A stretch of DNA of 64,000 nucleotides from Iningainema tapete BLCC-T55 (GTDB lineage Bacteria; Cyanobacteriota; Cyanobacteriia; Cyanobacteriales; Nostocaceae). The translations under genes and the position numbers were made by a program. Shown one piece after another: positions 3,024 to 42,688 of this stretch. The notes beneath the pieces were generated by a model. The model ran no database searches. It saw only the letters and a list, made by a program, of their open reading frames with translations, and was not told the DNA's origin. The stretch's first letter is position 1; each line of letters starts with the position of its first letter. The stretch covers positions 186,001-250,000 of the forward strand of contig NZ_JACXAE010000110.1 of the NCBI RefSeq assembly GCF_014698965.1. Direction: 5' to 3'.

Positions 3024-3353
3024 ATGTCTATCTCGCTGGCAAATTTAGACCTTTCTGGACTTGATCTCGACTTGGCAACACTTAAGGTGATTGAGCGAGT
3101 ACTCGATCAAATTGAGTTGCTCATCAACGACAAACCTGAAAGTGCGATCGCTTTCCTATACAAGCTCAAAAATGAGATTGTGCAACTCAAAGGTCAAAAA
3201 AGCAAGCCGGATACTAACATGATTCATGTTGGAATTAGTGAATTAAGGCAGTCTTTTCATGCTCATATTCGTGTTATTGTGGCTCAAATTAATAAAAGCC
3301 CTTCATCGTTAGAAAATCTCTGCAATTGGATTAAGGAGAATATCAACCGATGA
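3024..3353 (+). CDS. Small hypothetical protein translationally coupled to the downstream NTPase
   Basis: ORF of 109 aa; stop overlaps the next ATG (ATGA at 3350-3353). Confidence 0.65.
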   Translation: MSISLANLDLSGLDLDLATLKVIERVLDQIELLINDKPESAIAFLYKLKNEIVQLKGQKSKPDTNMIHVGISELRQSFHAHIRVIVAQINKSPSSLENLCNWIKENINR

Positions 3354-5470
3354 TTCCTTCAGATATCCGCCTTTACACTTGGGTTGACGTTGAAGAAGTT
3401 TTACTTCGCATATCTGAACAAGGTAGTTTGCCAGAATGGATAATTTGGGTGCGAGCCTACTGGGATGGTTTAATTGATGATATTTATGTTTTACCTTCAT
3501 TTCGTTCAACAGCTAGATTCTCCTCTTTAGAAATCAGACCAGAACATCTCATACTAGGTGCTAAAAACCCGTTTATACTAACACAAATACTAGCTGCTCT
3601 TGGAAAAACTTTAGGTGTAGATGTTGTATTAGTAGATCTGCGTGCTGGACTTTCCGAACTTTCTACAGGTCTTCTTTTAGATCCACGGGTTTACCGCATT
3701 TTTGTTACAACTTTAAGTGGACAATCTATTTCAGGAACAGCCAGACTTTTAGAGCTTTTAGGAGAGCGAGCACCTTCCATACGAGATACAGATCCATTAC
3801 CTGCAATCATTATTAGTCAGGTTCCTGAGGAATTCCAAAAAACAGATTTATTATCGAATCCAGAAGAAAAGCTTCTTGAATCTGCTAAATCATTTTTAGG
3901 AGAAGACCTACAACTTTTAAGGGTGATTACAGGATTTGTAGATAATTTGCTGGTTTTACCATCAATGTGGGAAGATGTAATCAATCGGCTTAATCGCTCA
4001 GGTATTGTAGATGCTGTACGTCCATTGCTGGATTTATTACCCACAAAGCCGAGTCAAACTGTTAAGGAAAGCCTTCCCACTTTAAAATCTCAAAGAGAAA
4101 CTCTCAGAGATGTTACTAAAAAACTGGTGTTTGCAGAAACGGCAGAAGCAGAAGATTTTTTAGCTACTATTCCTTTACGTCACTTGGCTTCAGATCACAG
4201 ACGTCAAGTCCCAATTACAGTTGTGGTTGGAGCTAAAGGTTCAGGAAAAACTTACACTTTTTTACAAATAATTCGTAGAGAAAACTGGCAAACTTTTGCT
4301 GAAGATGCTTGTGCAACTCAAGTCCAAGTTAACGCTCTAATTTGCCCTGTTTTGGCATCGAAAAATCTTAACCTTCCTGCCTTGCAATTGGTAGGAGAAG
4401 TACAGAAAAAGACAGCACAAGCATTGGGTTTTGCTCATCCCCACAACATCCAAAGTATTCGTGATCATATTGGAGATTTTTGTCAGTTGAATCTTCACGA
4501 AGGTCAGTGGCGAGAACGTTGGTTAGATATGATTGCCTGGGGTGTTGGATTTCAACCTCAAAAGGAGGGTGCTGGTCGAGCATTGACTGAATATCTAGTT
4601 GAGAAGCAAAAGCGATTGCTTGTCATTATTGATGGTTTGGAAGACCTTTTCCAAAACTTTGCTAGTGACGAAACTCAACAGACATCTTTACGGGCTTTAC
4701 TTCAAGAAGTTCCTGAATGGCTTGGGCAGCAGCCTGGTCGTCCTCTAGGTATTCTCATTTTTGTTAGACGTGATATGGTGCTGGCGGCTATACGTCAAAA
4801 TGCTGCGCAAATGATCGCACGCTACGAGCCTTATGCTCTAAAGTGGAATAGAGAAGAGGCTTTAAGACTTGTCGCATCGGTAACTAATCTGTCAAAAATT
4901 CAGATCAGTACTAGTATCGAAAAACTTCAGGATCTGAGGGAAGAGGAACTGACTCAGGTTTTAGTAACTTTATGGGGTAAAAAATTAGGTTCTGATAGCT
5001 CAAAAGAAGCTGCTTCTGCCAGATTTGTAATTGCAGCGCTTTCCGACTTCAGGGGACAAATTCAATCACGCGATTTAGTACGTCTTCTCCATTTAGCGGC
5101 TAAAGAATCAGTTAATGACGATCGCTGGCTTGATCGCATTCTTGTTCCCAAAGCCATTAAGGCTGCTTTACCTGAATGCAGTACTGAAAAAATTGCGGAA
5201 ATAGAACTAGAAAACACTGCTTTAAAAGATATTTTCACAAAATTACGTGGACTTGGTGAAGAAGAACGAAAAATCCCTTTCACACGCGAGCAACTACAAT
5301 TATCTGTAGGAGAAATGAAGATATTGGAAGATAACGGTGTCGTCATTCGCGAAAAAGATGATTATTATATGCCAGAAATCTTCCGTTTGGGATTAGGCTT
5401 TTCACTTAAGGCTACAGGACACCCTGCCGTTATGTCTCTGGCACGCCGCGCTGCTAAGCAGGGAACTTAA
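3350..5470 (+). CDS. Fusion protein: small N-terminal domain + P-loop-less ParA/MinD-like segment + STAND/AAA-type NTPase
   Basis: GVDVVLVDLRAGLSELSTGLLLDPRVYRIFVTT is ParA-like but no upstream KGG P-loop; later Walker A GAKGSGKT and Walker B-like LLVIIDGLEDL. Confidence 0.75.
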   Translation: MIPSDIRLYTWVDVEEVLLRISEQGSLPEWIIWVRAYWDGLIDDIYVLPSFRSTARFSSLEIRPEHLILGAKNPFILTQILAALGKTLGVDVVLVDLRAGLSELSTGLLLDPRVYRIFVTTLSGQSISGTARLLELLGERAPSIRDTDPLPAIIISQVPEEFQKTDLLSNPEEKLLESAKSFLGEDLQLLRVITGFVDNLLVLPSMWEDVINRLNRSGIVDAVRPLLDLLPTKPSQTVKESLPTLKSQRETLRDVTKKLVFAETAEAEDFLATIPLRHLASDHRRQVPITVVVGAKGSGKTYTFLQIIRRENWQTFAEDACATQVQVNALICPVLASKNLNLPALQLVGEVQKKTAQALGFAHPHNIQSIRDHIGDFCQLNLHEGQWRERWLDMIAWGVGFQPQKEGAGRALTEYLVEKQKRLLVIIDGLEDLFQNFASDETQQTSLRALLQEVPEWLGQQPGRPLGILIFVRRDMVLAAIRQNAAQMIARYEPYALKWNREEALRLVASVTNLSKIQISTSIEKLQDLREEELTQVLVTLWGKKLGSDSSKEAASARFVIAALSDFRGQIQSRDLVRLLHLAAKESVNDDRWLDRILVPKAIKAALPECSTEKIAEIELENTALKDIFTKLRGLGEEERKIPFTREQLQLSVGEMKILEDNGVVIREKDDYYMPEIFRLGLGFSLKATGHPAVMSLARRAAKQGT

Positions 5471-38503: not shown

Positions 38504-39544
38504 TTAAGATTTGGCTTTGATGGACATAAGTTTTGATAGTGGTTGTTGATGCGTGGTAATTTCCAATTGTTCTTTTGCCCACTCATGAGCCACTTTCATA
38601 ACTGAAGTTTGGCTTAGTTTGGATCGTGCCTCTTTCCAGTTATTTACATAAAGTAAATCTTGAGCAAAATCGGTTTCTTTTATCTCCAGCCTTGTGGAAT
38701 ATAAATTATCTTCTTCCGACTGTAAATAAGCAGATTGAAATTTCACCAATGCATCTTCAAATGCTGGTAATGATTTCAATTCTGGCGTTAACATACTAAT
38801 TACCAAAGAAGGATCGTAATAACTTTCATCATCGACCTTTGCTTTTGGCGGTGCGACGCGACCAATTTGCGATAACACCAGATTTATACCTCTAAGAGAT
38901 TGATCGTTGATTGTTGTCACAATAATTCGCTGAATTCTTGGGTCAAAAATGATGGGACTGGATATTTTACTTAAACCAGAACTCAAATCAATTAATACAT
39001 AGTCAGCACCAACTGCTTTACCTAAACTATGAATAGCATTGCCGCATTCCCAAACTCCCTCTGGACTTGTGACCAACTGCTCAGGTAGAATGGGAGTATC
39101 TAATAGCTGATTATCATCAAGACACGCAGGTAAAAAATATACAGTTGACTTTCCTTCATATTTAGGGGATTTGTTAACTTCCCTGGCAAATAATGAAAGT
39201 GTTTGTTCTCTTTCAATCGGAGAGTAGTGGTAAGCTTCAAGAAAATCAATAAAAGAAACTACTGGTTGTGGCTTTTCACTCATGTTCCAGTAAGTAAGAC
39301 CAGGAGCTTCTAAATCAGCATCAATAACTAATACAGTTATAGACCTATCTATTTCTTTAGCTCTATCTAACAAAGCAAAAAGATGTGCGGCTAAATTTAA
39401 TGTTCTGCCCACACCACCTTTGAAAGAATAGAAAGCTATTAAACTTGGCTTCTCAATATATGGTTCTGGAAGCTTAACTATTGCTTGTACTTTTGACCTT
39501 TCCTCTTCATTAATATAAGCAATTTCTTCCCAAAACGGACGCAC
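38504..39544 (-). CDS. KGGVGR-motif ParA/MinD-like ATPase
   Basis: LIAFYSFKGGVGRTLNLAAHLFALLDRA; TVLVIDADLEAPGL; DYVLIDLSSGLS. Confidence 0.9.
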   Translation of the reverse strand: MRPFWEEIAYINEEERSKVQAIVKLPEPYIEKPSLIAFYSFKGGVGRTLNLAAHLFALLDRAKEIDRSITVLVIDADLEAPGLTYWNMSEKPQPVVSFIDFLEAYHYSPIEREQTLSLFAREVNKSPKYEGKSTVYFLPACLDDNQLLDTPILPEQLVTSPEGVWECGNAIHSLGKAVGADYVLIDLSSGLSKISSPIIFDPRIQRIIVTTINDQSLRGINLVLSQIGRVAPPKAKVDDESYYDPSLVISMLTPELKSLPAFEDALVKFQSAYLQSEEDNLYSTRLEIKETDFAQDLLYVNNWKEARSKLSQTSVMKVAHEWAKEQLEITTHQQPLSKLMSIKAKS

Positions 39545-39583
39545 AGAAATATCAGTTGTACTTTTTTCCTCTCCTGGAATAAA

Positions 39584-39835
39584 TTATACTGGCAATGTAG
39601 CATCACCAAGGTCAAGTTGGATGACAGACTGATCTTCCTGATACCAGTCTTTGAACCAATTTTTTAAAGCCTGCGCGGCATTCTCTCTGTTTTCTTTGCT
39701 AATAAGACCTATTTCCAAAGCATCGGAGAAACAACGAATCCTGACTACTCCTTCTGGTAGCTTGCTGCCATAGCTAGTTTCGCGGCAAATAGTTCTTCTC
39801 ACATCAAGCCATGTTAGTAATCTGAGAAATTTCAT
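39584..39835 (-). CDS. Small partner protein upstream of the KGGVGR ATPase
   Basis: FLRLLTWLDVRRTI...LPEGVVRIRCFSDALEIGLIS aligns by eye with the N-terminus of 3350-5470. Confidence 0.65.
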   Translation of the reverse strand: MKFLRLLTWLDVRRTICRETSYGSKLPEGVVRIRCFSDALEIGLISKENRENAAQALKNWFKDWYQEDQSVIQLDLGDATLPV

Positions 39836-39885: not shown

Positions 39886-40086
39886 TCATGTGCGTGCTTC
39901 TGTTTGATCAAGTTCTAAAAAAAGTTCTTCTGCACTCAGAGTAAGTTCTTCATCAGTTAATGCTGGAAAATTGTTAAAGTGTATAGTGCGTTTGAGTAAC
40001 TCTAATGCCGTTTCCCACTTTTCAGATTCGCTTAAATTCTCAAAAGAATTAAGAAGATTTTGCACAGCTATGTTCATATCATACAC
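39886..40086 (-). CDS. Small antitoxin-like protein
   Basis: VQNLLNSFENLSESEKWETALELLKRTIHFNNFPALTDEELTLSAEELFLELDQTEA resembles cyanobacterial TA-associated small proteins. Confidence 0.55.
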   Translation of the reverse strand: MYDMNIAVQNLLNSFENLSESEKWETALELLKRTIHFNNFPALTDEELTLSAEELFLELDQTEART

Positions 40087-40546: not shown

Positions 40547-42688
40547 ATGGGGCTTTTAGTGAAATGGCTGCAAATATTTGGGCAGGACATTGCTCGTGCC
40601 ATATCTGAGTCAGCACCAACACCACCATTAAAAGCAATTGATCCAGGGATTCCATACGCTGAACTATATCGCCGACTGAATTTGCTCAATCAGTACGTTG
40701 ATGCGGTTCCTCCTATAGACACATTGGATCTACCAACACTACCAGCCACCCCAAATGATTTTAAAAAGCAACTCAAGCTTTACAAGCAAAAGCCTAATTT
40801 AGTACTAACTGGAGGCTTTGACGCTGGCAAATCACATATGGCGAATGCTCTGTTGGGCAGCAAAAACTTGCCTGTCGGCTATCAGCCAGCAACACGAGTC
40901 ATTACATTTATTCGTCACGTCGAAGATCGTCCAGAATGGTTCAAAGACGATGTATTGATTTTTGATGAGGACTTTTGGCTAAAAGATGAGAAAGGTAAGC
41001 AAATAATTGACTTGCTACTCCTAGATGACAAGGAACGTTGTCAGCAGTATTGTTTACAAGCAGGAAGCTTCAATATTTTGCAAAAATATGGGGTACATGG
41101 TAGTAATGAGGATATAGCAGCCCATGCTGCCGTAGTCTATATGGACTCCCCTGTACTCAAAGCTTGCAATCTGATCGACCTCCCAGGTTACTCAGATCAA
41201 CCTGATGAAGTATCAAAAGATGTGGAGAAGGCGAATAGCGCCGCACAGGTAGCCGATGTATTATTGTATGCTTCGCCTGCCAAGGGTCACATTAATGGTC
41301 AAGATATGATCCGCCTCGGTAGCTTACTGCGTTTACTTCCTGCTCCTGAGAATGAATACAGTAATTTCCCAACACTGGGCAATCTTTTCATTGTGGCGAC
41401 CCATGCTGATCCTAGTATTTCTGACCATCAACTGACAGAAATCTCAGATAAAGCCACAAAAAGACTCTATAAAAATATAAGCGAAACCGTTTTAGAGCGT
41501 CGTAGAGAACAGACAAATCGTACTATTACTGAAGCAGATTTACGAAAAAGATTCTTTACGTTTTGGTCAGAAAGACCCGATAGATGTCAAAGTTTATTTA
41601 ATGAGTTGACACAAATACTAAGTGAATTTCTGCCTCAAGCACGTATGTGTCGTGTTGAGCGGGAAATTAAAGCAATAAAGGAGGACAACATAAAAAAGTA
41701 CGTAAGCCTGATTGAGGCATACCAAACAACTATTGCTGAAATAGATTTACAGCGAGATCAACTACAAGCACTCTCAGAAAATGAACCTACTCGCCAACAA
41801 CAAACTCAGCATAAACGTAACAAGGTACGCCAACGTATCAATGACTTAAAAAAAGACACTAAAGCAACATTTCAGAGGTATGTAGAAAAACTGTTAAATG
41901 TCGATGCTGTAGAACAGATAATCCGAAATAAGTACAGCGATAAAAAAGAGGCGAAGGAATATGTTGCTGGCTATCTTGTAGAAAAACTTCAAAACGAGGC
42001 AGAAAACCTGATTAAAGTTAATTCTGAGAAATTAAACGTAGAGATTGACGCTTTGCTTGAAGGGTACACAGAAGCACGAGCTAAAATTCCAAATCCCGAC
42101 AAAATACCTGTAGATATTCCCTTCGATGCTAAAGGTGCTTTTCTCGGTGGGCTTGTAGGTTTAACTAGCATCGGAGCCTTGTCTGCTTGGGCGGCAGCAC
42201 TTGGAAATCTTGGCGGTTACATCTTAGTTGCTAAATTGGTTAGTCTTTTGTCAGCACTCGGCATTGGTTTTGGTTTCAGCGGCGGCACGGCTGGAGTAAT
42301 TGCTTTCGTAGCGGCTATTGGTGGTCCTATCGTGCTTGGCATAGGTTTAGCTGCTGCATTCGCTTTCGCAGTCTGGGGTTTATTTGGAGAGTCTTGGCAA
42401 AAGCGTTTAGCAAAGCAAATTGTTAATTATTTTACCGAACAGCGAGTGCGTGAGAAGTTCACAGAAGGAATCGATCAATACTGGCAAGACACAACTAACG
42501 GTTTTGAGAAAGGCGCTGATGCAGTAGAAGCTGACTGGAACAAATATCTTAAACACTTGCGTGAGATAACTTCTCCTAAAACAGAATCAAAGGAACACAT
42601 TGAAAAGATTATCAACAAACTTGAGGTACTCAGGGATTTTTTCGCCGAAATCCCTTGGTTGAATATTAACCTTGCTAAGCAAAGCTGA
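40547..42688 (+). CDS. Dynamin-like GTPase
   Basis: LVLTGGFDAGKSHMANALLG (G1); YQPATRV (G2-like); LIDLPGYSD (G3); ATHAD (G4); C-terminal hydrophobic region GGLVGLTSIGALSAWAAALG. Confidence 0.85.
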   Translation: MGLLVKWLQIFGQDIARAISESAPTPPLKAIDPGIPYAELYRRLNLLNQYVDAVPPIDTLDLPTLPATPNDFKKQLKLYKQKPNLVLTGGFDAGKSHMANALLGSKNLPVGYQPATRVITFIRHVEDRPEWFKDDVLIFDEDFWLKDEKGKQIIDLLLLDDKERCQQYCLQAGSFNILQKYGVHGSNEDIAAHAAVVYMDSPVLKACNLIDLPGYSDQPDEVSKDVEKANSAAQVADVLLYASPAKGHINGQDMIRLGSLLRLLPAPENEYSNFPTLGNLFIVATHADPSISDHQLTEISDKATKRLYKNISETVLERRREQTNRTITEADLRKRFFTFWSERPDRCQSLFNELTQILSEFLPQARMCRVEREIKAIKEDNIKKYVSLIEAYQTTIAEIDLQRDQLQALSENEPTRQQQTQHKRNKVRQRINDLKKDTKATFQRYVEKLLNVDAVEQIIRNKYSDKKEAKEYVAGYLVEKLQNEAENLIKVNSEKLNVEIDALLEGYTEARAKIPNPDKIPVDIPFDAKGAFLGGLVGLTSIGALSAWAAALGNLGGYILVAKLVSLLSALGIGFGFSGGTAGVIAFVAAIGGPIVLGIGLAAAFAFAVWGLFGESWQKRLAKQIVNYFTEQRVREKFTEGIDQYWQDTTNGFEKGADAVEADWNKYLKHLREITSPKTESKEHIEKIINKLEVLRDFFAEIPWLNINLAKQS

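Follow-up and report, generated by a model that had tools for sequence, protein, structure and literature searches.

Two damaged copies of a conserved HEPN-like and KGGVGR NTPase gene module, a phage-defence candidate, in a cyanobacterial sequence

Introduction

The closest described relatives of the locus studied here belong to PDC-M28, a phage-defence candidate of PADLOC. In cyanobacteria its classical form is composed of three genes in the order A-B-C: A (about 143 aa) is small and HEPN-like, B (455-472 aa) carries a KGGVGR domain with an N-terminal region, and C (about 500 aa) is a P-loop protein of the Sll1717 type. A followed by a fused BC is also found in cyanobacteria, including a complete copy elsewhere in the genome from which our sequence comes (L157). 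NCBIfam keeps separate models for the two ATPases, NF047398 (AAA_KGGVGR) and NF047389 (ATPase_Sll1717), the descriptions of which name neither a system nor a partner. Pairs of a small HEPN gene (MAE_18760) and a ParA/Soj ATPase gene were proposed as toxin-antitoxin modules by Anantharaman et al. 2013 (PMC3710099). Kaur et al. 2020 (PMC7159879) describe NTP-dependent conflict systems as enriched in multicellular bacteria, with predicted-inactive MinD/ParA-like domains among their domains.

We analysed a stretch of 64,000 nucleotides from Iningainema tapete BLCC-T55 (hereafter “the window”). The original prediction had recognised two genes at 38504-39835, coding for an 83-aa protein and a KGGVGR ATPase, in the same order as the corresponding parts of a fused protein at 3350-5470. 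The two products were proposed to interact (a “Rosetta-stone” case), and both loci to belong to one under-described NTP-dependent system. The three ORFs are present at these positions, that at 3350-5470 having 706 codons.

Results

The intact module and its relation to PDC-M28

A single scan of 84,980 species genomes (the whole-genome sets hold one genome per species) gave 80 named loci. The N-domain and the KGGVGR domain lie in one ORF at 78 of them, so that the pair of adjacent genes expected to be conserved elsewhere is not. The two exceptions are an interrupted gene with an insertion-like break between these domains (L235) and a gene with a 135-residue N-terminus that is not scored by the N-domain model (L244). 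The gene pairs that are truly conserved are a HEPN-like gene directly upstream of the NTPase gene, usually overlapping its start (76/80 loci), and a KGGVGR protein with a C P-loop protein. The intact module was found in cyanobacteria, proteobacteria, desulfobacteria, heliobacteria and acidobacteria.

The intact protein of family I (914-958 aa) comprises the N-domain, a KGGVGR MinD/ParA-like domain and a C-terminal P-loop (STAND-like) domain, i.e. the C domain. The KGGVGR domain passes the curated cut-off of NF047398 (155-159 bits for a cut-off of 90) and the C domain falls just under that of NF047389 (68-69 bits for a cut-off of 75). The top fold matches of the middle domain are FleN, ParA and MinD. 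Its Walker A is of the deviant kind of the MinD/ParA (SIMIBI) ATPases: the signature Lys is kept in 55/55 proteins, and Arg stands where a P-loop usually has Lys in 55/55. Also invariant in the 55 intact proteins are KGGV.R, D-x-D-x-EAPG, DxRxG and R678/D680 and, in the C domain, the Walker A GxKGxGKT and the Walker B. In the DLRxGLSE motif the Arg is kept in 55/55 and the Glu in 54/55 intact proteins (alignment A2).

The HEPN-like partner (about 145-210 aa) gave a structure model with a pLDDT of 95.7. Its invariant residues are Y36, E39, K43, H66 and R113-Y114-G115 (alignment A3). The Rx4-6H RNase motif is absent from this alignment; RNase activity is therefore not predicted. The partner has no Pfam HEPN match, and its profile matched none of the sequences of solved structures. 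The HEPN structures 1ufb, 2hsb, 1wol and 4nqf are among its top Foldseek matches, which are weak (E at least 0.15, TM up to 0.50). The profile of the partner matches that of the classical PDC-M28A type (hhalign probability 89, E 2e-6). “HEPN-like” is thus a qualified assignment, resting on these weak structural matches and on the profile match.

The matches to the PADLOC models are distant. PDC-M28B scores 1.2e-12 on the intact chain and 2.5e-12 on 38504-39544 of the window; PDC-M28C scores 1.8e-9 on the intact chain and 7e-12 on 3350-5470, and is absent at the 38.5-kb locus; PDC-M28A scores 0.019 on the partner. B and C are separate in classical PDC-M28 and joined in one chain in the two families of the window; the true Rosetta-stone pair is therefore B with C. 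As judged from sequence comparison, the module appears to be a distant, B-C-fused relative of PDC-M28. It resembles the dyads of PMC3710099 in its pairing of a small HEPN-like gene with a ParA/Soj-like ATPase gene, but its partner has neither a Pfam HEPN match nor Rx4-6H, and its ATPase has in addition the N-domain and the C-terminal P-loop domain. Unlike the conflict systems of Kaur et al. 2020 (PMC7159879), it shows no vWA-MoxR, GTPase or EAD component. No named function for the intact module was found in the literature searched, in which neither KGGVGR nor PDC-M28 is named, and the relevant passages of the 2020 and 2021 eLife papers do not describe the module.

Two damaged paralogues in the window

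At 38504-39835 (minus strand) about 443-444 codons are read in one frame through both predicted ORFs, the sole stop of this translation being a TAA at codon 84. The features of the locus are as follows.

38504-39835, minus strand: remnant of a family I NTPase gene, with N-domain, KGGVGR MinD/ParA-like domain and one TAA, the C-terminal P-loop domain being absent (translation, relatives, HMMs)
39587-39835, minus strand: N-domain part, the “83-aa protein” (N-domain HMM, E 3.5e-39, positions 1-77 of 108)
39584-39586, minus strand: in-frame TAA (codon 84) within the last predicted strand of the N-domain, Glu in relatives (translation, structure model, alignment)
39404-39421, minus strand: KGGVGR motif (deviant Walker A), sequence intact (alignment)
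38966-38989, minus strand: DLSSGLSK, an altered DLRxGLSE motif (compared with the intact proteins of alignment A2)
38510-38530, minus strand: approximate breakpoint of the homology with intact genes, close to its place in Rhizonema PD37 and PD38 (sequence comparison)

The missing C domain counts about 480 aa in relatives. A model search of the window found no HEPN-like partner at 39.8 kb.

The locus at 3.0-5.5 kb is a family II paralogue that carries two in-frame deletions.

3350-5470, plus strand: family II NTPase gene (the “fusion”), keeping the first 39 residues, the latter half of the KGGVGR domain and all of the C domain (HMMs, comparison with Rhizonema PD37)
3469-3473, plus strand: TTTAA microhomology (5 bp) at the junction of an in-frame 546-bp (182-codon) deletion by which the P-loop half was lost (alignment)
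3024-3353, plus strand: HEPN-like partner gene of which only model positions 2-31 and 132-146 of 147 survive, with an in-frame 288-bp deletion at about 3307 (HMM, alignment)

Both deletions were defined by reference to Rhizonema PD37, which is intact at the family II locus and 81-97% identical in DNA. The family II gene is intact in about 20 other genomes searched, and the 546-bp deletion was seen in no other family II gene among them. The 3350-5470 protein covers only positions 1-35 of 108 of the N-domain model and 103-282 of 282 of the ATPase model, and it matches NF047398 only at 92-188 of 190, the KGGVGR P-loop half being gone. It is thus not the complete fusion that it had been taken for. 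The dN/dS of its lineage (a three-taxon value, as for the family I lineages below; all dN/dS values come from a simple counting method) is 0.13-0.17; therefore the deletions arose late or the protein, although shortened, remains in use. In another family II copy (L029/L091, G001) a single in-frame TAA lies just before IRPEHL.

The similarities announced between the two loci are real. Over 37 aa BLASTP aligns the 83-aa ORF to the beginning of the 3350-5470 protein (E 5e-6), and the N-domain HMM finds the two (3.5e-39 and 1.3e-16 respectively); the ATPase ORF matches the stretch that follows, over 186 aa (E 2e-18). The domain order is alike, and the loci are paralogues of one under-described NTP-dependent system, as had been proposed. 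We consider it very probable that the 83-aa and ATPase ORFs are pieces of a single broken gene, and that both loci of the window are damaged copies of one gene.

Loss of the C domain in two clades

The nearest branches to the window copy, in a tree built from 33 genes of family I, are Rhizonema sp. PD37 (G046) and PD38 (G232), the three forming a group with a bootstrap of 100. The C domain is missing in all three, homology stopping at about one point, and the flanks of the window copy are partly common to PD37. From the common loss, the breakpoint and the part-shared flank we therefore infer one inherited loss of C. On these sequences, the loss of the C domain would predate the separation from the Rhizonema lineage, and the window copy would afterwards have lost its partner and gained the in-frame stop. 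The C-less genes are open ORFs in both Rhizonema genomes; the HEPN-like gene is kept in PD37 and gone in PD38 and in the window copy. The dN/dS is 0.22 (0.14-0.40) for the window 38.5-kb lineage, 0.29 for PD37 and 0.31 for PD38; in lineages with a C domain it ranges from 0.11 to 0.48.

In a second C-less clade (G030, G142, G143 and G145; dN/dS 0.16-0.29) the P-loops are degraded (NDGVER, KGDVER) and the proteins carry a FitA-like ribbon-helix-helix tail (PF22513, 2.7e-6, obtained with a shortened query that combined the beginning and the tail of a single such protein). The Arg and Glu of DLRxGLSE are kept in none of the seven proteins of the two C-less clades, and both are kept in a gene that is split between B and C (Sphaerospermopsis, G243). 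This correlation, over two clades, suggests that the motif is tied to the presence of C.

The loci L079-L082, from one cyanobacterial genus, code for C-less KGGVGR proteins with a degraded P-loop and a FitA-like tail, under purifying selection. At another locus (L083, G147) the first part of the HEPN-like gene runs, across an in-frame deletion, into the latter half of the KGGVGR domain.

The C-less proteins could be a retained product that keeps intact modules in check, e.g. as a dominant-negative or immunity partner. C was indeed lost in two separate clades while the rest stayed constrained (dN/dS 0.16-0.31), both clades lost the Arg and Glu that are nearly universal in intact proteins, and one of them combines a degraded P-loop with the FitA-like tail. 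But PD38, G143 and the window copy have no partner gene left, one member (G147) has the deletion that fuses partner to ATPase, and the clades are only two. We hold this explanation for possible, without believing it to be the probable one.

Links with phages

The HEPN-like and NTPase module is found on a P2-like viral contig of IMG/VR (L248, 2579778630), between the portal gene and a P2-type replication gene. This site is the P2 defence hotspot described in PMC9122126. The Microcystis phage Mic1 carries a gene annotated “ParA family protein” (L253:4010-4630; MN013189.1 8171-8791), the 206-aa product of which shares 61% identity with the C P-loop domain encoded by Microcystis viridis FACHB-1342 (L195). 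Its Walker A is destroyed (GEDVAKKT vs GAKGAGKT). Relatives of this copy on four viral contigs (L254-L257) are all without Walker A and have a similar end point, and the gene order of L257 is as in Mic1. The dN/dS among the phage copies is 0.30-0.44. This mimic, which is known from one lineage, may be a captured host-derived decoy and is a candidate anti-defence protein.

The 18 neighbour proteins checked are mostly ordinary, with few defence matches: GmrSD/HEC-05 near L209 and a type IIG or DISARM-like methylase near L226. Enrichment in defence islands is therefore not claimed. In many cyanobacteria the copy follows a conserved gene, always the one of about 830 aa that we take to be recG. A toxin-antitoxin or housekeeping switch with no role in phage defence would agree with this conserved position, with the ordinary genes that flank other copies and with the proposal made for HEPN and ParA/Soj pairs (PMC3710099). 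The location in the P2-like hotspot and the phage-borne mimic speak against such a switch, which we regard as unlikely. We thus lean towards an anti-phage system as the role of the module.

The in-frame stop of the 38.5-kb locus

Codon 84 codes for Glu in relatives (“TLPVEF”, vs “TLPV*F” in the window). A structure model made for an intact relative (mean pLDDT 86.6) gives the N-domain the order helix-strand-strand-helix-strand-strand, with residues 80-86 forming the last strand; the stop thus cuts this strand. The GTG at 39544, given as the start of the ATPase ORF, is merely the first start codon past the TAA. No well-placed ribosome site lies 5' of it, the GGAGAGG about 20 nt away being conserved coding sequence. 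Programmed recoding of the TAA was considered and rejected, since relatives have an ordinary sense codon there.

A TAA that results from a sequencing or assembly error would leave an intact C-less N-domain plus KGGVGR protein, as in Rhizonema PD37. The reading holds no further stop or frameshift in its 444 codons, the gene is under purifying selection and the C-less form is open in both Rhizonema genomes, as this explanation would have it. But the HEPN-like partner is gone too, as expected of a decaying locus, and the second locus of the same genome has two large deletions; an error is in our opinion improbable. That the ORFs are two genuine genes with interacting products, fused elsewhere, agrees with their order in the paralogue and with the dN/dS of the window branch past the TAA (0.22; 0.12-0.37), but is made highly implausible by the single frame with one stop inside a strand, by a GTG lacking a well-placed ribosome site and by the single ORF of nearly all relatives.

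The interaction deduced from the “split” therefore loses its ground, the split being one nonsense codon inside the last strand of the N-domain. This is a general trap: a nonsense codon can mimic a Rosetta-stone pair and falsely suggest that two proteins interact.

A proposed phage-triggered switch

The explanation that we favour, and think probable, is that the two loci of the window are damaged paralogous copies of a conserved two-gene module (HEPN-like protein and N-KGGVGR-C NTPase) that acts as a phage-triggered switch. This overall grading is a compromise: our confidence is higher for the broken copies, somewhat lower for the anti-phage role and lower again for the detailed switch. In such a switch the N-domain and the HEPN-like protein would sense, or would hold the complex. 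The binding of nucleotide by the KGGVGR domain would be passed on to the C NTPase by way of the DLRxGLSE switch region. On infection the C domain would control the HEPN-like partner, by assembly or release of a toxic state. Copies missing one part of the NTPase would be inert or dominant-negative, an effect that Mic1-like phages would exploit by expressing a P-loop-dead copy of the C domain.

A more extended form of this proposal is that the module is an anti-phage system of which partial copies have been turned against it or restrain it, i.e. the dominant-negative C copy of phages and the two C-less clades with their parallel DLRxGLSE decay. We put it forward tentatively, as somewhat less likely than not to hold in full. 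Several points go against the switch with damaged copies. Constraint acted for most of both branches, so that the damage could be of late date or the proteins, though shortened, could be active still. The HEPN assignment has weak structural matches and no Rx4-6H motif, the neighbours are mostly ordinary genes, the PADLOC matches to a candidate system are distant, and the phage mimic comes from one lineage.

The loci of the window are broken genes, and the points of interest are the system and its viral mimic. The intact module offers concrete grounds for testing it as a phage defence. From the C-domain mimic of phages follow predictions on the domain that phages would attack and on the partial copies expected to be dominant-negative.

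Surroundings of the 38.5-kb locus

Upstream of the locus lies a small ORF (39886-40086) without Pfam matches, possibly an antitoxin-like element. The 284 bp around it are 80% identical to the sequence downstream of the Rhizonema PD38 copy (L077 5128-5406). The locus also adjoins a gene for a Dynamin-family GTPase (40547-42688; Pfam Dynamin_N, 2.9e-12).
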